Shown one piece after another: positions 29,046-37,945 of a stretch of DNA of 64,000 nucleotides (positions are counted from its first letter, which is position 1; each line of letters starts with the position of its first letter). The position numbers and the translations under genes were made by a program. This DNA comes from an uncultured Lachnospiraceae bacterium (GTDB lineage: Bacteria > Bacillota > Clostridia > Lachnospirales > Lachnospiraceae): contig CALWIA010000034.1 of NCBI GenBank assembly GCA_944380605.1, positions 1 to 64,000 on the forward strand, in the 5' to 3' direction. Under the pieces are notes generated by a model. The model ran no database searches. It worked only from the letters and a program-made list of their open reading frames with translations, and had not been told where the DNA came from.

Positions 29046-29090
29046 GCTGTAACGGGGAGGAGACGGTTTGCGTTTCCTCCCCGTTACAGC
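29046..29090. terminator. Bidirectional hairpin between convergent genes
   Basis: GCTGTAACGGGGAGGA (29046-29061) pairs perfectly with TCCTCCCCGTTACAGC (29075-29090). The LacI stop codon lies inside the right arm. A T-rich run follows only on the minus strand, after several bases. Confidence 0.65.
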
Positions 29091-30142
29091 GCCTGGCGGG
29101 CGGAGTCGGAAATGGTCTGGATGACATTGGATGACCCGGTCAGGCGGCAGACCGATCCGCCCTGGATCAGCGTCGGCGTAATCAGCTCCGGCGGCAGGTC
29201 CTTTCCCGGCGCATACCGCCGGATCAGGTTGACGGCCTTGCGGGCCAGCCGATCCAGATGCAGGGACACCGTAGTCAGCGGATAGGCAACGGAACGCAGA
29301 GCCGAGACGCCGCCGTATCCCACAAAAGAGAGCTGCCGCGGAATCTCTATGCCCCGGGCATGGGCCAGCTGCATCAGCTGCCCCGCCAGCAGGTCGGAAC
29401 TGACCATGACTGCGGTAACCGGTTCCTGCAGGATGCGGTCCAGAATCGGAGCGGCAGCCGCTTCCGCGTCCAGATCTTCCAGGATCCAGGAGGCCTCCGG
29501 CTGGATGCCGAAGTCGTCCATGGCGTCCCGGTAGCCGGCCAGATAGTCCTGCCGGATGCCGGGGGAAAGAGACGCGGCGATGCAGGCGATCCGCCGGTGT
29601 CCGCTGATCAGCAGGTGAGAAGCGGCCAGATAGCTGCCCTGCCGATGGTTGATCGTAATCGAATTGGAAAGAAGCTGAGAATCCACGTACCCCAGGGTAA
29701 TCACAGGGATCTGCAGCCCCCGCATAATTTCACTTACCGGACCGGAACGGCCGGTCTGAAAGACGGCGGGATCCAGAATCAGTCCGTCCATGCCCCGCCG
29801 GGCCAGCATGGAAATCAGCTCCGGTTCGACTTCCGACCCGAGAGAAGACAGAGAAATCAGCGGAAAGTAGGAGGCGTTGTGACAGGCCATCTCCACGGAA
29901 CGGATCAGATCTCCGAAATAGTAGTAGTGATCCTGGGCGATGAGAAGGCCGATGACCTGGGTCTTCTTGGTGACCAGGCTGACCGCCGCCTGGTTGGGCT
30001 GGTAATTCAGCTCCTGGGCAGTACTCTGGACCAGCTGCCTGGTTTTTTCCGATATACGGCTGTCTTTGTTGTTGAGAACCAGGGAAACGGTGGTCACGGA
30101 AAGACCGGTTTCCCTGGCAATATCTTTAATGGTAACCCCCAT
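29084..30142 (-). CDS. LacI family transcriptional regulator
   Basis: 352 residues. The helix-turn-helix is at the N-terminus (VTIKDIARETGLSVTTVSLV, 3-22) with hinge LNYQPNQAAVSLVTKKTQVIG. A periplasmic-binding-protein-like effector domain follows. It is divergent from the 2-hydroxycarboxylate/citrate lyase operon. Two LacI-type palindromes (30230-30244 and 30382-30397) lie in the shared control region, so it very probably represses that operon and possibly itself. Effectors of this class are small sugars or, here, perhaps a hydroxy acid. AAAGGAGG precedes ATG 30142. Confidence 0.93.
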   Translation of the reverse strand: MGVTIKDIARETGLSVTTVSLVLNNKDSRISEKTRQLVQSTAQELNYQPNQAAVSLVTKKTQVIGLLIAQDHYYYFGDLIRSVEMACHNASYFPLISLSSLGSEVEPELISMLARRGMDGLILDPAVFQTGRSGPVSEIMRGLQIPVITLGYVDSQLLSNSITINHRQGSYLAASHLLISGHRRIACIAASLSPGIRQDYLAGYRDAMDDFGIQPEASWILEDLDAEAAAAPILDRILQEPVTAVMVSSDLLAGQLMQLAHARGIEIPRQLSFVGYGGVSALRSVAYPLTTVSLHLDRLARKAVNLIRRYAPGKDLPPELITPTLIQGGSVCRLTGSSNVIQTISDSARQAL

Positions 30143-30422: not shown

Positions 30423-31733
30423 GTGAGTAAAATTAAAGAAACCAAGATGTTAGGCTTTTCGATGCCCTTCTTCCTGATTATGGTGGTGGTCTTCATGGCT
30501 ATTGCGCTGACGGGCAGTACGATGGCGAGCTTTGTAGGAGCCCTGGGCTTCTGCCTGATTGTAGGTACCCTGATCGGCTGGGTCGGCGACCGTATCCCCA
30601 TCTGGAAGGACTGGCTGGGCGGCGGCATGCTGCTGGCCAGCATCGGCACCAGCGCGCTGGTGATGTTTAACCTGATTCCCGCAGAAACTGCGGATATTCT
30701 GAGCAACTTCAACAATACCATGGGCTTTCTGGATCTGTACATCCTGACCCTGATTACCGGCGCGATTCTGTCCATCGACAGAAAGCTGCTGATCCGCGCC
30801 TTCGCCGGATTTATTCCCGCGATTCTGGGCGGCGTTGCGATGTCCGCGCTGCTTACCGCCATTGCGGCGATTCTGACCGGACAGGACGTTCTGGAAGCAC
30901 AGTTAAACGTTATGCTTCCCATCATGGGCGGCGGAAACGGCGCCGGCTGTATCCCCATGAGCAGCATGTGGGGCGAAGTAACGGGCAACGATCCTCAGGA
31001 GTGGTACGCGCCCGCGTTCGCCATCATGTCTCTGGGCAACCTGGTTTCCGTATTCTGCGCGGCTCTGCTGGACCGCATCGGCAAAAAGTATCCGTCTCTG
31101 ACCGGTAACGGCGTGATGATGAAGGGCAATGCCGATGTCAAAGGCGCGGAAGATCCCAAGGATGTCAAGATCGGGCCTGCCGAGTACGCGTCCGGTTTCG
31201 CCCTGGCTCTGTTCCTGTACTGCCTGGCTGATTTCTACGCATCCAAGATTTCCATTATCAACAACGTGCTGAACCTGGGATTCTCCATCCACAAGTTCGC
31301 GTTCATGGTTATTTTCGCGGCTATTGCCAACGGCCTGGGCCTGATCCCCATCGAGATCCGCGCCGGCGCCAGAGGCATGCAGCAGTTCTTTGCCAAGTAC
31401 ATGTCCTTCCCGCTGATGGTAGCCATCGGCGCAGGCACCAACCTGGCAGACTACCTGGAAGCCTTTACGATTCCCAACCTGGTTATGATCATCGCCTGCG
31501 TACTGGGCGCTATGCTGGGCGCAGTGCTGATCGGTACTCCTCTGTTCAAGTTCTACCCGGTTGAAATCGCCATCACGGCTGGTCTGGATATGGCCGGCGG
31601 CGGCGGCAGCGGCGACGTGCAGATCCTGGGCGCTGCCCACAGAATGGAGCTGATGTCTTTCGCACAGATTTCTTCCCGTATCGGCGGCGCCATCATGCTG
31701 ATTATCGCCAGCGTGCTCTTCGGCATGATATAG
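30423..31733 (+). CDS. 2-hydroxycarboxylate transporter (2-HCT family, CitS/MleP type)
   Basis: 436 residues with about 11 membrane segments. The 2-HCT family moves citrate, malate or lactate by Na+/H+ symport or exchange. Both re-entrant-loop signatures are visible: GGGNGAGCIPMSS (about 162-174) and GGGGSGDVQILGAA (about 392-405), the GGxG motifs of CitS. Translation starts at GTG 30423 with AGGAGG (30407-30412) upstream. It heads the operon with citDEF, so citrate or a related 2-hydroxy acid, free or conjugated, is the expected substrate. The sequence does not settle which. Confidence 0.93.
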   Translation: MSKIKETKMLGFSMPFFLIMVVVFMAIALTGSTMASFVGALGFCLIVGTLIGWVGDRIPIWKDWLGGGMLLASIGTSALVMFNLIPAETADILSNFNNTMGFLDLYILTLITGAILSIDRKLLIRAFAGFIPAILGGVAMSALLTAIAAILTGQDVLEAQLNVMLPIMGGGNGAGCIPMSSMWGEVTGNDPQEWYAPAFAIMSLGNLVSVFCAALLDRIGKKYPSLTGNGVMMKGNADVKGAEDPKDVKIGPAEYASGFALALFLYCLADFYASKISIINNVLNLGFSIHKFAFMVIFAAIANGLGLIPIEIRAGARGMQQFFAKYMSFPLMVAIGAGTNLADYLEAFTIPNLVMIIACVLGAMLGAVLIGTPLFKFYPVEIAITAGLDMAGGGGSGDVQILGAAHRMELMSFAQISSRIGGAIMLIIASVLFGMI

Positions 31734-31753: not shown

Positions 31754-32497
31754 ATGAAAGATGCTGAGGAACGTCTGAAGGCGGAGCACCGGAGAGTCCG
31801 GCTGCGCAACAACCGGTTTCTCATGGGCCTGGCCCTGTTCGCGGCGGGGTACCTGCTGCTGGAACTGGACTGGATCATGATCGGCGCTCTGCTGTACCTG
31901 GCAGTAATCCTGGCGGATATGCACCGGGGGCAGAAGGAACTGGCCCGGGCCTATGCCGCGGAAGAGGAAGGCTGCCTGCAGGAACTGAATTTCTGGCTGG
32001 AGTCTGTTTCAGGCAGAAAGCCGGATGAGAAAATTCCCGGGCTGGTATGCGGCTACCGGGAAAAAGAAGGACGTTTTTCCCAATGTCTGCTGTACAGGGA
32101 GGGAGAGAATCTCTACTCCCTGGGCAGCATTCTGGAAAAACATAAAGTATACTCCGTGTCCAACCAGGCGACGTATCTGCTGTCCATAAAAAAGAAAAGC
32201 CGGAGGGACGCGGCACAGAAACTGGCGCTTTCCCCGGAGGGCTGGAAAGCGCGGCCGGAGAAGCACATGGCCTTTCTGATGCAGTGGGCCAGTCAGGAAG
32301 AGAAGTACAGCTGTCTGGAAAATTTCGCCGACGACTGGCTTCTGCAGGACCTGCTGGAAGGAAAGGCCGGCCAGCCGGTGGGCTTTGCCCGCGCGAAAGT
32401 CCGGCTGAAGCGGCAGACACTGTATGAATGCGGTACAGAAAGCGGAGAGACACTGATTTTGACAGAAGAACAGCGCAGACGTCTGAAACTGGCCTAA
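31754..32497 (+). CDS. Membrane protein of unknown function in the citrate lyase operon
   Basis: 247 residues. Two membrane segments near the N-terminus (about 23-40 and 43-58, LMGLALFAAGYLLLEL and WIMIGALLYLAVILAD) are followed by a cytoplasmic domain of about 185 residues rich in Lys, Arg and Glu. I do not recognise a family. It starts 20 bases after the transporter stop and is followed 33 bases later by an esterase, so it is an integral member of the operon. An accessory role to the transporter is possible but not shown. Confidence 0.82.
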   Translation: MKDAEERLKAEHRRVRLRNNRFLMGLALFAAGYLLLELDWIMIGALLYLAVILADMHRGQKELARAYAAEEEGCLQELNFWLESVSGRKPDEKIPGLVCGYREKEGRFSQCLLYREGENLYSLGSILEKHKVYSVSNQATYLLSIKKKSRRDAAQKLALSPEGWKARPEKHMAFLMQWASQEEKYSCLENFADDWLLQDLLEGKAGQPVGFARAKVRLKRQTLYECGTESGETLILTEEQRRRLKLA

Positions 32498-32530: not shown

Positions 32531-33331
32531 ATGGAGATCAGAGCGTTCAATACGGTTATCACGCCTTTTCAAATGGAAGTCACCTTCCGCGTGATGGTGC
32601 CGGATGGCTATGAAAACGGAGAACGGAACTATCCGGTGCTGTATATGAATGACGGACAGGACTTGTTTTACGACGAAGACGCCATAAACGGGCGCAGCAT
32701 GCGCTATGCGAAGTACTATTCCCAGTACAGCCGGTTTCTGCCCCAGGTGATTATCGTGGGCATCGACTGTCCCATGAACAACGCCATGCGGACCCGGCAG
32801 TATACGCCTTATACCAAGTGTTTTGACGTACCGGAAGGAAAAAATTTTGAACGGGAGATTCACGGCACCGGAAAAGAGTACGTGAACTGGATCGCGGAAG
32901 AACTGAAGCCGTGGATCGACCGGAATTACAGAACCATGCCCCAGGCCAGATATACCGCGCTGGGAGGATACAGCACAGGCGGATTGCTCAGCGTTTACGG
33001 CGTTGTCACCCGGCCGGCGGTGTTCTCACGGCTGCTGGTGATGAGCGGGGCATTTTACATCTGGATGGATTGCCTGGAGGACACGCTGGAACAGTACGAC
33101 TTGAATCACCTGCGGTACATCTATCTGGATGCGGGAACGGAAGACCAGGGGCGCATGACGACCCGGGAGCAGTTTGTAGAAGGCGGGCAGATGCTGTACG
33201 AACATTTCCTGAGCTACGGCTTCAACGAAGACCAGCTGAAGTTTGAAGTGTTCGAAGGCATGCATCACGATCCGAGAGAGTTCGGCCTGCGCTTTCCGGA
33301 CGCCCTGCGCTGGATATTCAAAGACATCTGA
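32531..33331 (+). CDS. Alpha/beta-hydrolase esterase A (enterochelin-esterase-like)
   Basis: 266 residues, no signal peptide, so cytoplasmic. It resembles the PF00756 esterase family (Fes/IroE/esterase D). A nucleophile elbow GGYSTGG (about 146-152) supplies Ser; the Asp is likely in LDAGTED and the His in EGMHHDPREF near the C-terminus. GGGGAGG precedes ATG 32531. It is clearly paralogous to the gene at 35927, with shared segments such as RFLP.VI.V, YTPYTK.FDVP, GKEY..W and FPDALRW.F. The two copies flank citDEF. Family members cleave esters of hydroxy acids, but the substrate here is unknown. Confidence 0.88.
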   Translation: MEIRAFNTVITPFQMEVTFRVMVPDGYENGERNYPVLYMNDGQDLFYDEDAINGRSMRYAKYYSQYSRFLPQVIIVGIDCPMNNAMRTRQYTPYTKCFDVPEGKNFEREIHGTGKEYVNWIAEELKPWIDRNYRTMPQARYTALGGYSTGGLLSVYGVVTRPAVFSRLLVMSGAFYIWMDCLEDTLEQYDLNHLRYIYLDAGTEDQGRMTTREQFVEGGQMLYEHFLSYGFNEDQLKFEVFEGMHHDPREFGLRFPDALRWIFKDI

Positions 33332-33345
33332 TGAAGGAGGACGCA

Positions 33346-33624
33346 ATGGTTATTGTCAGAAACGCGGCGGCAGGAACCATGGAATCCAGTGATGCCATGG
33401 TAACCGTATCGCCGGGAAAAGAAGGAATCCGGATTGAACTGGGCTCTACGGTCTATGTTCAGTTTGGAAGACAGATTGAAAACCTGGTCCGCCAGGTGGC
33501 CGAAGAGGCCGGCGTAGAAAACGCGGACATTAAGGTACAGGACTTCGGAGCCCTGGACTGCACCATCCGCGCGAGAGTGGAGACCGCCCTGGAGCGGGCA
33601 TCAAAGGAGGAGACTGCGTCATGA
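33346..33624 (+). CDS. citD: Citrate lyase acyl carrier protein (gamma subunit)
   Basis: 92 residues. CitD carries the triphosphoribosyl-dephospho-CoA group and holds the acetyl thioester during citrate cleavage. AGTMESSD places the attachment serine at residue 14, the same position as in characterised CitD. GALDCTIRARVETA is the conserved C-terminal block. ATG 33346 is chosen over ATG 33331 because AAGGAGG (33334-33340) lies between them. The stop overlaps the citE start (ATGA). Confidence 0.95.
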   Translation: MVIVRNAAAGTMESSDAMVTVSPGKEGIRIELGSTVYVQFGRQIENLVRQVAEEAGVENADIKVQDFGALDCTIRARVETALERASKEETAS

Positions 33625-34496
33625 GAAGAACCATGCTGTTTTTGCCGGGCAACAATCCCAACATGATTGTCAACGGCGGTCTGCTGGGATCCGACAGCAT
33701 CATCCTGGACCTGGAAGATGCGGTTTCCCCGGACAACAAGGATGCGGCCAGAAATCTGGTGGCCCAGACCCTGAAATCCCTGAAGTTTCCGGGATGCGAG
33801 GTGATCGTGCGGCTCAACGGACTGGACACGCCCTACTGGAAAGACGATTTAAAGAAAATTATCCCGCTGAAGCCGGACGTGGTTATGCCCACCAAGGTCA
33901 GCGGAAAAGAGTATATCGAGACGCTGGACGCCGCCATGACGGAAATTGAAGAAGAGAACGGCATTCCGGTGGGAACCGTGAAGATCCTGGCGCTGATTGA
34001 GACGGCAGCCGGCGTGGAACATGCCTATGACATCGCCTGCGCGTCCAAGCGCATGACCGGCGTTTTCCTGGGAGCGGAAGACCTGACGGCAGACCTGCGG
34101 TGCGCCCGCACCAAGGAAGGCGGAGAGATCGCCTACGCCAGAGGACGTCTGGTCTGCGCGGCCAGAGCCGCCGGCATCGACGCCTACGACTGTCCCTTTA
34201 CGGATGTAGAGGATACGGAAGGGCTGGAAAAGGATACCCGCCTGGCCAAATCTCTGGGATTTTCCGGCAAGGCCGCCATTAACCCCAGACAGGTGGACTG
34301 CATCAATCAGGTATTCAGTCCCACGGCGGCGGAAATCGAATACGCAAAAGAAGTATTCAAAGCCATTGAAGAAGGCAAGAAGCAGGGCAAAGGCGCCGTT
34401 TCCCTGCGGGGCAAGATGATCGACGCGCCTATCGTCAGCCGGGCGGCTACCGTGCTGGACATGGCAGAAAAGCTGGGAGGAGGAATTCCGGAATGA
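33621..34496 (+). CDS. citE: Citrate lyase beta subunit (citryl-ACP lyase)
   Basis: 291 residues. CitE cleaves citryl-ACP to oxaloacetate and acetyl-ACP. The TIM-barrel HpcH/HpaI signature is present: MLFLPGNNPNM, DSIILDLEDAV (metal and CoA region), ALIETAAGVEHAYDIA and FLGAEDLTADL (metal-binding Glu/Asp), and GKAAINPRQV. Length is normal. It overlaps citD and citF by 4 bases on each side. A related citramalyl-type substrate cannot be excluded from sequence. Confidence 0.95.
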   Translation: MRRTMLFLPGNNPNMIVNGGLLGSDSIILDLEDAVSPDNKDAARNLVAQTLKSLKFPGCEVIVRLNGLDTPYWKDDLKKIIPLKPDVVMPTKVSGKEYIETLDAAMTEIEEENGIPVGTVKILALIETAAGVEHAYDIACASKRMTGVFLGAEDLTADLRCARTKEGGEIAYARGRLVCAARAAGIDAYDCPFTDVEDTEGLEKDTRLAKSLGFSGKAAINPRQVDCINQVFSPTAAEIEYAKEVFKAIEEGKKQGKGAVSLRGKMIDAPIVSRAATVLDMAEKLGGGIPE

Positions 34497-35899
34497 GTAA
34501 ATTAGTAAGTTCCATTCAGGAAGCCATTGAAAAAAGCGGACTGAAAAGCGGAATGTGCATTTCATTTCACCATCATCTCCGCGGCGGCGACTATGTGCTG
34601 AACATGGTGATGCAGGCCATTGCCGATATGGGCATCCGCGATCTGACGGTAAATGCCAGCTCGCTGTTTGACTGCCATATGCCGCTGATGGACCACATCC
34701 GGAACGGCGTGGTGACTGGGCTGGAGACCGACTATGTATCCGGCGGAATCGGCCGGGAACTGTCGGCAGGCATTCTGCCCAAGCCCGTGGTGTTCCGTAC
34801 CCACGGCCTGCGGCCCAGCGACATCGCTACCGGAAAATCCCACATCGACGTGGCGTTTCTGGCGGCGCCCACCTCTGACGAAATGGGCAACTGCACCGGC
34901 AAATGCGGTCCTTCCGCCTGCGGCTCTCTGGGCTATGCCATGGCGGACGCCATGTACGCGGACAAGACGGTGATCATCACCGACAATCTGGTGCCGTATC
35001 CGCTGGAGAAGCAGTCCATTACCGAAGATTATGTGGATTATGTGGTAAAAGTAGATTCCATCGGCGATCCCAAGGGCATCGTATCCGGAACCACCCGGAT
35101 GCCCAAAGACCCGGTGGCGCTGCGGATTGCCGCCTACGCGGCAAAGGCCATTGAGGCCTCCGGCCTTTTAAAGGACGGATTTTCCTTCCAGACCGGCGCC
35201 GGCGGCGCGTCCCTGGCAGCGGCTTCCTATCTGAAGGACATCATGTTAAAGAAGGGCATCAAGGGAAGCTTCGCTCTGGGCGGCATCACCGGATATCTGG
35301 TGGAAATGATGGAAAGCGGATGTTTCGAGTATCTGCAGGATGTGCAGTGCTTCGACTTAAAGGCAGTGGATTCCATTAACCGGGATCCCAGACACATTGA
35401 GATTTCGGCGCTTCACTACGCCGGCCCCACCGCCAAGAGTACGGCGGCTCAGGCACTGGACGTGGTGGTTCTGGGCGCGACGCAGATGGACGTAAACTTC
35501 AACGTCAACGTGCACACCAACAGCAGCGGATACATCATGGGCGGTTCCGGCGGACACACGGACGTGGCTGCCTGCGCCAAGATGACCATGATCGTGGCGC
35601 CGTTAAGCCGCGCCAGGATGTCGCTGGTGGTGGACCGGGTCAACTGCATTTCGACGCCGGGTTCATCGGTAGACGTGCTGGTTACCCAGTACGGCGTTAC
35701 GGTAAATCCCGCGCGGACGGATCTGCTGGAGCGGTTTAAAGAGTGGAAGCTGCCGGTATATGACATCCATGAATTAAAGGAGATCGCGGACGGACTGAAT
35801 GGCATGCCGGATCCCAACCCCAACCGGGGAGACCGGGTGGTGGCGGAAGTGCTGGATCGGGATGGTTCCATTCTGGACCGGATCTATCAGGTACTGTAA
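34493..35899 (+). CDS. citF: Citrate lyase alpha subunit (citrate CoA-/ACP-transferase)
   Basis: 468 residues, slightly short of the usual about 500 because of a shorter N-terminus. CitF exchanges acetyl-ACP for citryl-ACP. Conserved blocks include FHHHLRGGDYVLNMVM, DVAFLAAPTSDEMGNCTGK, GFSFQTGAGGASLA, FALGGITGYLVEMM and CISTPGSSVDVLVT. The start overlaps the citE stop. Together with citD and citE it makes a complete lyase, but the ligase (citC) and maturation genes (citX, citG) are absent from this window. Confidence 0.95.
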   Translation: MSKLVSSIQEAIEKSGLKSGMCISFHHHLRGGDYVLNMVMQAIADMGIRDLTVNASSLFDCHMPLMDHIRNGVVTGLETDYVSGGIGRELSAGILPKPVVFRTHGLRPSDIATGKSHIDVAFLAAPTSDEMGNCTGKCGPSACGSLGYAMADAMYADKTVIITDNLVPYPLEKQSITEDYVDYVVKVDSIGDPKGIVSGTTRMPKDPVALRIAAYAAKAIEASGLLKDGFSFQTGAGGASLAAASYLKDIMLKKGIKGSFALGGITGYLVEMMESGCFEYLQDVQCFDLKAVDSINRDPRHIEISALHYAGPTAKSTAAQALDVVVLGATQMDVNFNVNVHTNSSGYIMGGSGGHTDVAACAKMTMIVAPLSRARMSLVVDRVNCISTPGSSVDVLVTQYGVTVNPARTDLLERFKEWKLPVYDIHELKEIADGLNGMPDPNPNRGDRVVAEVLDRDGSILDRIYQVL

Positions 35900-35926: not shown

Positions 35927-36733
35927 ATGAGGATTGACGAAATTAATACAAAGATTACAACCCTGGACCGGGATGTAAAAGTCCGAGTGATGACGCCGGA
36001 CGGCTACGAAAAGGGAGACATGAATTATCCGGTTCTGTACATCAACGACGGCCAGGACGTGTTCCGGGACGATCAGACTTTCTGGGGAGCGGAGAGCCTG
36101 CGTTTCGAACAGTATTACAAAGACTACGGCAGATTCCTGCCCCACGTGATTCTGGTGGCCATCGAGTCGCCGGAGGACCACGCGGTGCGGACCCAGCAGT
36201 ATTCGCCCTACACCAAGAATTTTGACGTGCCGCCGGAGAAGAAGTTTGAACCCCGGATCGAAGGCAAGGGCAAAGAATACATGAAGTGGATGGTGGAAGA
36301 GTTAAAGCCGATGATCGACCGCACCTACCGCACCCGTCCGGAGAAGGAGCACACCGGCATCTGCGGCTACAGCACCGGCGGACTGATCAGCATCTACGCG
36401 GTGCTGACGTATCCCCAGGTATTTACCCGTCTGCTGGCCATGAGCAGCGCCGTCTGCATCTGGATGGACTGCCTGAAGGAGACGCTGGACCATGCGTCCT
36501 ACGACCATCTGAAGTACGTTTATATGGATGTGGGAACCAATGAATTCGGCCGCATGACCACCAAGGAAGAGTTCCTGCAGGGAGCCAACGACCTGTATCA
36601 GAATTATCTGGACCATGGGGTGGCCAAGGAAATCATCAAATACAACATCTATCCGGATGCCATCCACAACCAGAAAGAATGGAGAGTCCGTTTCCCGGAT
36701 GCCCTGCGCTGGGTATTCCAGGACTGCCAGTAA
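35927..36733 (+). CDS. Alpha/beta-hydrolase esterase B, paralogue of esterase A
   Basis: 268 residues, cytoplasmic. The nucleophile elbow CGYSTGG has the same STGG variant as esterase A; candidate acid and base are in MDVGTNEFG and YPDAIHNQKEW. GAGGGAGA precedes ATG 35927, 27 bases after citF. The duplication with retained active sites suggests that the two enzymes act on different bonds or isomers of one substrate class. Substrate unknown. Confidence 0.88.
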   Translation: MRIDEINTKITTLDRDVKVRVMTPDGYEKGDMNYPVLYINDGQDVFRDDQTFWGAESLRFEQYYKDYGRFLPHVILVAIESPEDHAVRTQQYSPYTKNFDVPPEKKFEPRIEGKGKEYMKWMVEELKPMIDRTYRTRPEKEHTGICGYSTGGLISIYAVLTYPQVFTRLLAMSSAVCIWMDCLKETLDHASYDHLKYVYMDVGTNEFGRMTTKEEFLQGANDLYQNYLDHGVAKEIIKYNIYPDAIHNQKEWRVRFPDALRWVFQDCQ

Positions 36734-36766
36734 ACCCAATAACCAGATTGGAAGGAGGATATGGGA

Positions 36767-37831
36767 ATGAACCGGGAATTTCAGGTAGTACATGTAAAGG
36801 CGGATACGCCGAAAGAACGCGGAAGACAGTACGGAGAACAGGCAGCAGACAAAATCCTGGCCGGAGTGGAAAACTACCGTCAGTATTTTGAAAAGAGCCG
36901 CGGATACTCCTGGGATGAAACAAAAGCATATGCGGCAGCGTACATTCCGGTGATTGAGAAAATGATGCCGGAAGTGCTGGAGGAGGCCAGAGGGATTGCG
37001 GAAGGAGCCGGAACGGGTCTGGAAGAACTGATGGTGCTGAACACCCGGTACGAACTGACCCAGTATCCTTCCAAACTGCCGGAGTGCACCACGGCGGCGG
37101 TGCTGCCGGAGGCTTCGGCAGACGGCGGTACGTACCTGATCAAAAACTGGGACTACCGCCCCGGCGTGCTGGACAAAATCGTGCTGGTGCATCTGGAAGA
37201 TGAAAAAGGCACCCGCATTCTGGGCCTGACGGAAGCCGGCCAGCTGATCCGGGAGGGCTTCAACTCCAACGGCGTCGGCCTGTGCAACAATATGATCCAG
37301 TCCATATACGATACGGCGGGATCCGGCATTCCGGTAACATTTCTGAGAAGAAGAGTGCTGGCCAGCGGCTGCTTTGAAGAAGCCTACGGCTGGCTGGTGC
37401 ACGCGGCCCGCTGCGTGTCCAACAACATGCTGCTGGTGGATGGAAAGCACGGCAGAGCGGTGGACATCGAAGCCTACCCCGGCGGACATGACGAGATCTA
37501 TCCCAGAGACGGCATCGTAGCCCATGCCAATCACTTTGTGGTGCATCCGGCTATCGACGCGCTGAAGAGCCGGCCCAAGAACCGGGACAGCCGTCTGGAC
37601 TACCTGCTGCGGACCCACAGAGGCAAAATCGATCCGGACTGCATCAAAGAGTGCATGAAGGACCACGAGTATTATCCGGAAGCCATCTGCAACCACAGCA
37701 ACCATCCGGGCGAAGATCCCATGAAGGGACTGATGACCGTAGCTTCCATCATTGTGGATTTCCAGAAGCAGCAGGCCCACGTCTGCTATGGCAATCCCTG
37801 CGAGGGCCAGTACAAGGTTTACGACCTGTAA
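36767..37831 (+). CDS. C45 (acyl-CoA:6-APA acyltransferase-like) N-terminal-nucleophile hydrolase
   Basis: 354 residues. Family C45 enzymes autocleave to expose an N-terminal Cys and hydrolyse or transfer acyl amides. The motif PECTTAAVLPE places the nucleophile Cys at residue 107, after an alpha region of about 106 residues, as usual. NWDYRP, SNGVGLCNNM and ARCVSNNMLLVD follow as in the beta chain. ATG 36767 is used because AAGGAGG (36752-36758) lies 8 bases upstream; ATG 36761 would be only 2 bases away. No signal peptide, so it acts in the cytoplasm. It is the last gene of the operon. An amide-conjugated hydroxy acid is a plausible substrate (inference). Confidence 0.88.
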   Translation: MNREFQVVHVKADTPKERGRQYGEQAADKILAGVENYRQYFEKSRGYSWDETKAYAAAYIPVIEKMMPEVLEEARGIAEGAGTGLEELMVLNTRYELTQYPSKLPECTTAAVLPEASADGGTYLIKNWDYRPGVLDKIVLVHLEDEKGTRILGLTEAGQLIREGFNSNGVGLCNNMIQSIYDTAGSGIPVTFLRRRVLASGCFEEAYGWLVHAARCVSNNMLLVDGKHGRAVDIEAYPGGHDEIYPRDGIVAHANHFVVHPAIDALKSRPKNRDSRLDYLLRTHRGKIDPDCIKECMKDHEYYPEAICNHSNHPGEDPMKGLMTVASIIVDFQKQQAHVCYGNPCEGQYKVYDL

Positions 37832-37888
37832 GGCCGTCGGCGGACGGGATTGTCCCCAACAAACGCATACCGTAATTCTCTGTTATAC

Positions 37889-37945
37889 AAAAACCAGAAG
37901 TCTTTGGCGTTCCCCCCTGAACAGACCGGAGGCTTCTGGTTTTTT
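37889..37945 (+). terminator. Strong terminator of the citrate lyase operon
   Basis: AAAAACCAGAAG (37889-37900) pairs with CTTCTGGTTTTT (37933-37944), with T6 in total and partial pairing of the inner loop. Confidence 0.88.

Follow-up and report, generated by a model that had tools for sequence, protein, structure and literature searches.

We identified a rare subfamily of C45 hydrolases in anaerobic Clostridia that keeps company with lyases of the citrate family. The representative described here is encoded by the last gene of a lyase operon in the window (the whole stretch of 64,000 nucleotides analysed, from an uncultured Lachnospiraceae bacterium). We tentatively propose, with rather less than even confidence, that this cytosolic enzyme cleaves itself, hydrolyses an imported amide conjugate, and releases a citrate-family 2-hydroxy acid for CitDEF. 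The family, the predicted fold, the gene content, and the subfamily-specific lyase company are the established part of this proposal. The operon and its boundaries comprise the following features.

29084–30142, minus strand: LacI-family regulator, divergent and upstream of the operon (ORF and Pfam)
30423–31733, plus strand: CitS-like 2-hydroxycarboxylate (2HCT) transporter (PF03390, 416.1 bits; CitS equivalog, 423.8 bits, below the cut-off of 600)
31754–32497, plus strand: 247-aa protein, encoded between the transporter and esterase 1 genes (unmatched in Pfam and NCBIfam at E ≤ 0.001)
32531–33331, plus strand: esterase 1, PF00756 (Pfam/NCBIfam profile search)
33331–33624, plus strand: citD, lyase acyl carrier protein (profile, 99.7 bits; cut-off 63.5)
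33621–34496, plus strand: citE, lyase beta subunit, with Met at position 89 (TIGR01588, 326.5 bits, below the cut-off of 443.4)
34493–35899, plus strand: citF, lyase alpha subunit, of the probable citramalate-type clade (TIGR01584, 604.9 bits, cut-off 501.45; tree)
35927–36733, plus strand: esterase 2, PF00756 (52.6% identity to esterase 1)
36767–37831, plus strand: C45 autoproteolytic acyltransferase/hydrolase, 354 aa, predicted nucleophile Cys107 (PF03417, NF040521)
37888–37945, plus strand: predicted intrinsic terminator at the operon end (hairpin and U-run)

The eight genes between 30423 and 37831 run in one direction, with gaps of at most 33 bp or overlaps of a few bases. The terminator hairpin (−30.5 kcal/mol, z = −5.4) was not equalled by any of 200 shuffles and was absent from the output of a simple terminator scan; an adenine-methylase-like ORF and a LysR gene, both outside the operon, lie 3′ of it. 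The packed co-directional genes and the terminator bear out the first-pass annotation, which had placed the C45 gene last in its operon. Profile searches indicated that citD, citE, and citF are genuine family members, and citC and citX were found elsewhere in the same genome (2.53 Mb, 93.6% complete; contigs C9 and C33), as needed for activation of CitDEF. No dedicated amide importer is encoded in the operon. The two esterases flank citDEF on either side, and the solved structures nearest to esterase 2 by sequence were ferulic acid and IroE-like esterases, all weak matches. The idea of a conserved esterase pair was rejected: matches at E ≤ 1e-30 occurred in four of 378 genomes of the order, with 31–36% identity outside the window genome, and no copy above 36% identity was found in the other 377 sampled genomes.

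The C45 ORF spans 36761–37831 on the plus strand and has a second ATG at 36767, located 8 nt after a GGAGG. Because of this placement, the start at 36767 was preferred to the ATG at 36761. Counted from it, the Cys of the PECTTAAV motif is residue 107, so that both the start and the residue number given earlier hold. The protein scored 61.3 bits against PF03417 (cut-off 23.2) and 241.5 bits against NF040521, 'C45 proenzyme' (cut-off 85). An AlphaFold2 model built from ten aligned relatives had a pLDDT of 87.5 and a pTM of 0.89, and its best solved match was 2x1c, the precursor of isopenicillin N acyltransferase (Z 41.6, 332 residues, 2.3 Å). The two profiles and this fold match substantiate the earlier claim that the PEC-TTAAV motif marks a C45 hydrolase. 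When aligned with the predicted model, many Ntn hydrolases have mature chains that begin at residue 107, which supports Cys107 as a new N-terminus; the enzyme probably cleaves itself before this residue.

Cys107 was present in all 13 members of the subfamily described below (hereafter, the clade) and in the 18 other clostridial C45 proteins aligned (18/18). Asp129, Asn255, and Arg273 were likewise invariant in the 13 members. Arg162, Arg194, and Arg215 were also invariant in the clade, but they are partly shared with relatives encoded on plasmids and are thus no proof of a tricarboxylate pocket.

Isopenicillin N acyltransferase (2x1c–2x1e, family C45) and the window protein have the Ntn fold in common across nearly the whole chain, as well as a Cys nucleophile after an internal cleavage site and the motifs NWD, N-T-R-x-E, and H-x-N-H. 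In contrast, the window protein is bacterial, has 25% identity to the acyltransferase, is encoded in a lyase operon, and carries Glu instead of Gly before the Cys; the fungal enzyme has no Arg aligned to Arg194 and Arg215. As the acyltransferase is the closest solved fold (phmmer 4e-21), the C45 enzyme might work in the synthetic direction, forming a conjugate by acylation of an amine, with a thioester of CoA or of the lyase acyl carrier protein as the acyl donor. We consider this unlikely, since the neighbours are catabolic (lyase, importers, and peptidases) and no CoA ligase was recognised in the window operon with Pfam/NCBIfam profiles. Next in the Foldseek ranking were acid ceramidase and NAAA, with bile salt hydrolases and penicillin V acylases lower in the list. 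This lower placing would be the trace of a drug or bile-acid amide hydrolase of the penicillin or bile salt type, located here by chance. Such an origin is scarcely credible: the structural match was much weaker, the bile salt hydrolase/penicillin V acylase (C59) profile was not matched, PF03417 being the sole Pfam match at E ≤ 0.001, and the lyase company recurs.

The clade comprises 13 C45 proteins from 11 genomes, with at least 41.7% identity to the window protein, and lies on one side of a branch supported at 100/99. For comparison, 30 profile loci were fetched from the order; these comprised two members of the clade, 18 proteins that entered the alignment, one left out as a partial row, and nine without a BLASTP row at E ≤ 1e-3. 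The 18 aligned non-clade proteins had at most 29% identity to the window protein and formed their own group (100/100). The clade was detected in 3 of 392 genomes of the order (E ≤ 1e-40), in one of the 391 genomes of the class sample, namely the window genome, and in one of seven genomes in the family of genome G045. The window protein is therefore a member of a rare subfamily.

citF was found in all 11 genomes that carry the clade: the window genome, with three copies, and 10 of 10 others. Its background in the order was 31 of 392 genomes, three of these 31 being weak partial matches. In the order sample, the association was 3/3 (Fisher, 4.5e-4; 5.7e-3 when the window genome was removed). Eight further relatives came from a separate draw made with peptide patterns of the query; at the rate of the order, citF in 8/8 of them has a chance of 1.5e-9, a figure that is uncorrected and comes from a draw biased to near relatives, whose order is not given. 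A generic link between C45 and the lyase was rejected, since citF occurred in just 6 of 53 genomes of the order carrying other C45s only, and in those six the two genes were on different contigs or more than 500 kb apart.

citF lay within 8 kb of the C45 gene at 4 of 11 clade loci (the window, L007, L024 with L091, and L025). Assuming random placement and rounded genome sizes, the chance of this proximity is about 4e-6; leaving out the window genome (3 of 10 loci) raises it to 1.2e-4. At the other seven loci, citF was not seen in the available flank, which was short at L004, L008, and L010 owing to contig ends. Conversely, no C45 match was found at 16 other lyase loci (L020, L021, and L043–L056) from the window genome and nine clade genomes, and the lyases thus work mostly without C45. 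These counts bear on a possible role in lyase control. A lyase deacetylase that removes the acetyl group from the lyase acyl carrier protein has reportedly been described in work on Rubrivivax, and C45 or the esterases could act likewise. The position of C45 inside the lyase operon fits such a role; however, the seven loci with no citF nearby, the 16 lyase loci free of C45, and the ratio of three lyases to one clade-type C45 in the window genome make it very improbable.

The gene neighbourhoods of the clade relatives were as follows.

L007: C45-Crp-citDEF-citC-citXG, plus a dipeptide-type importer
G045: GntR-citD-citE-citF-SBP-DppBCDF-C45-C45, in one direction
L025, 1723–7530: C45-M20-ornithine aminotransferase-aconitase, facing citXG-citC-citF
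L003: LysR-2HCT-alpha/beta hydrolase-C45
L004 and L005: C45 and a PF04199 cyclase
L006 and L008: M28-DppBCDF-SBP-C45
L009: SBP-importer-C45-C45-PrpF, with an M28 gene farther upstream
L010: AbgT and C45

Neighbour profiles were run on one example per kind: M28 (L006 and L009), SBP_bac_5 (L006), PrpF, AbgT, M20, aminotransferase III, aconitase, the L003 hydrolase, and the L004 cyclase. The remaining importer genes were read from ORFs. A dipeptide-type ABC importer was present at 5 of the 11 loci (L006, L007, L008, L009, and L024). L006 resembles L007 in its importer, C45, and Crp genes, yet the lyase adjoins C45 in L007 only. The best solved relatives of the M28 neighbours were NAALAD-like proteins (over short stretches only) and aminopeptidases. 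The known animal beta-citrylglutamate hydrolase is an M28 peptidase, of a family different from C45, which makes a similar role of the M28 neighbours a possible lead. At L025, where the lyase genes sit on the strand opposite to C45, the nearest relatives of the M20 protein were HmrA and Xaa-Arg dipeptidase, and the aminotransferase was nearest to an ornithine aminotransferase; this gene run would suit a substrate of the citryl-ornithine type. Taken together, the clade neighbours are consistent, among other readings, with uptake of an amide and its cleavage into an amine-bearing portion and a citrate-family acid.

The company of C45 differed outside the clade. A tblastn search against plasmids gave 83 records with C45 relatives, none at 60% identity or above, and 18 loci were compared by annotation, L114 carrying none. 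An ABC importer of dipeptide-importer layout stood beside C45 at 12 of the 18 loci by annotation (labelled as importing peptides or dipeptides in L111 and L115; binding protein only in L108). An alpha/beta hydrolase was adjacent at five (annotated just 'hydrolase' in L100) and a class III aminotransferase was nearby at three, with an 'aspartate aminotransferase family' gene in L099. The tree included ten of the 18 proteins, all of which fell on the clade's side of the C45s (100/100). Neither citE nor citF gave a tblastn match at any of the 18 loci; the lyase link is thus seen in the anaerobic clade only and does not extend to C45 enzymes in general.

These plasmid modules (found in rhizobia, Streptomyces, and others under the annotation 'C45 family peptidase') share the C45 branch and, in some cases, the alpha/beta hydrolase partner with the window, whereas the window has a lyase, and a 2HCT carrier in place of the ABC importer. 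An importer and a hydrolase look like the older company of C45. A module of GntR, alpha/beta hydrolase, C45, and ABC importer recurs on plasmids from rhizobia to Klebsiella (L113, 5255–13083; L103, L106, and L110). On a Roseomonas plasmid (L108, 254–9784), genes for the aconitase AcnA and a tricarboxylate-transporter binding protein lie near GntR-C45-SBP, an aerobic parallel to the citrate link.

The plasmid loci, with their importers, hydrolases, and aminotransferases and no lyase match, argue for general amide scavenging, in which the substrates of C45 would be modified peptides or N-acyl amino acids, and the lyase would serve the same fermenter just as a carbon route under shared regulation. 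The importers at the anaerobe loci and the 16 lyase loci free of C45 point the same way. However, the citF association is specific to the clade and recurs in different gene orders, and aconitase and PrpF also adjoin clade members. We regard scavenging as a serious possibility, albeit a somewhat improbable one.

We also asked which lyase accompanies C45 in the window. The window CitF scored above its own cut-off, whereas CitE fell below the citrate-lyase equivalog cut-off of 443.4 bits, which E. coli CitE (L057, 452.1 bits) and L007 CitE (456 bits) passed. In both the CitF and CitE trees, the window copies grouped with a second copy from the same genome, L043, L044, and L045 (five members, 100/100). 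Three of the five CitE members were scored (292.5, 320.4, and 326.5 bits), all under the cut-off, as was L021 CitE of a different lyase group (361.9 bits). At CitE position 89, Met was present in all five members (the window, L020, L043, L044, and L045) and Arg in 15 of 15 others compared, a set that includes E. coli and the lyase of the G045 C45 operon and contains some near-copies. In an alignment, the human CitE-like protein CLYBL (5vxc), a citramalyl-CoA lyase, also had Met at this position. The Arg may hold the extra carboxylate of citrate, and Met versus Arg is a possible one-residue marker of citramalate versus citrate lyases.

The lyase cluster of L045 contains fumarase-type, B12-binding (GlmS-like), MutL, and GlmE genes, and GlmE is likewise present at L044. 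According to PMC4682846, putative citramalate lyase genes in clostridial methylaspartate clusters bear the annotation citrate lyase, and E. coli grown on citrate had high citrate lyase activity but showed no citramalate lyase activity. The window CitE and CitF resemble that citramalate lyase of clostridial glutamate fermentation in their clade with the GlmE-adjacent L044 and L045; they differ in that no GlmE match was found in the window genome (94% complete). The methylaspartate genes are the usual companion and not a defining part of citramalate lyase. Methylaspartate glutamate fermentation is not supported as a local source of citramalate, and citramalate, if it is the substrate, would need another source. 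The window operon has CitD, CitE, and CitF in the same order as the citrate lyases of E. coli and L007 but differs in the low CitE score and the missing Arg. From the score, the tree, and this residue, the window lyase is more probably a citramalate lyase than a citrate lyase. The first-pass annotation had named a citrate lyase operon; its three gene families were confirmed, and the citrate assignment was not.

Here, we outline how the pathway would run. The 2HCT carrier would import a 2-hydroxy acid or its small conjugate, and the two esterases would open ester-linked forms of the acid. C45, having presumably cut itself before Cys107, would hydrolyse amide forms in the cytosol through this residue. 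The acid released may be citrate beside the Arg-type lyases of the relatives, and in the window it is probably citramalate or a close analogue. CitDEF would then split the freed acid into acetate and a 2-oxo acid. An amide link to the hydroxy acid had been inferred earlier from the operon alone. The recurrence of the clade with lyases makes such a bond more likely, without proving it, and genes for amide uptake or cleavage (dipeptide-type importers, AbgT, M20, and M28) recur as well; the part that requires revision is the acid itself, as the lyase here is probably of the citramalate type. beta-Citrylglutamate is a candidate substrate of C45.

Among the papers listed in literature searches, none showed a bacterial route for citrate-family amide conjugates. 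Judged by title and abstract opening, none of the matches listed concerned bacterial citrylglutamate hydrolysis; one paper merely cites the animal synthase. A broader version of our proposal, which we consider possible but doubtful, is that this C45 subfamily, distinct and belonging to anaerobic Clostridia of the gut type, supplies the missing amidase in the catabolism of citrate-family amides, feeding citrate or citramalate lyase. These amides would be either citryl-diamine siderophores like rhizoferrin and staphyloferrin A or conjugates of citrate with amino acids, for example beta-citrylglutamate.

To our knowledge, many C45 enzymes have no known substrate, and the lyase company of this subfamily provides a short, testable list of acyl groups. 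Our results suggest that the bacteria with this operon eat amide-linked citrate or a close relative of it. If true, this would explain how citrate in amide linkage, which is a building block of siderophores and occurs as an animal metabolite, is used by some anaerobes. It would also caution that the annotation 'citrate lyase' may in some cases cover citramalate lyases, perhaps separable by one Arg of CitE.
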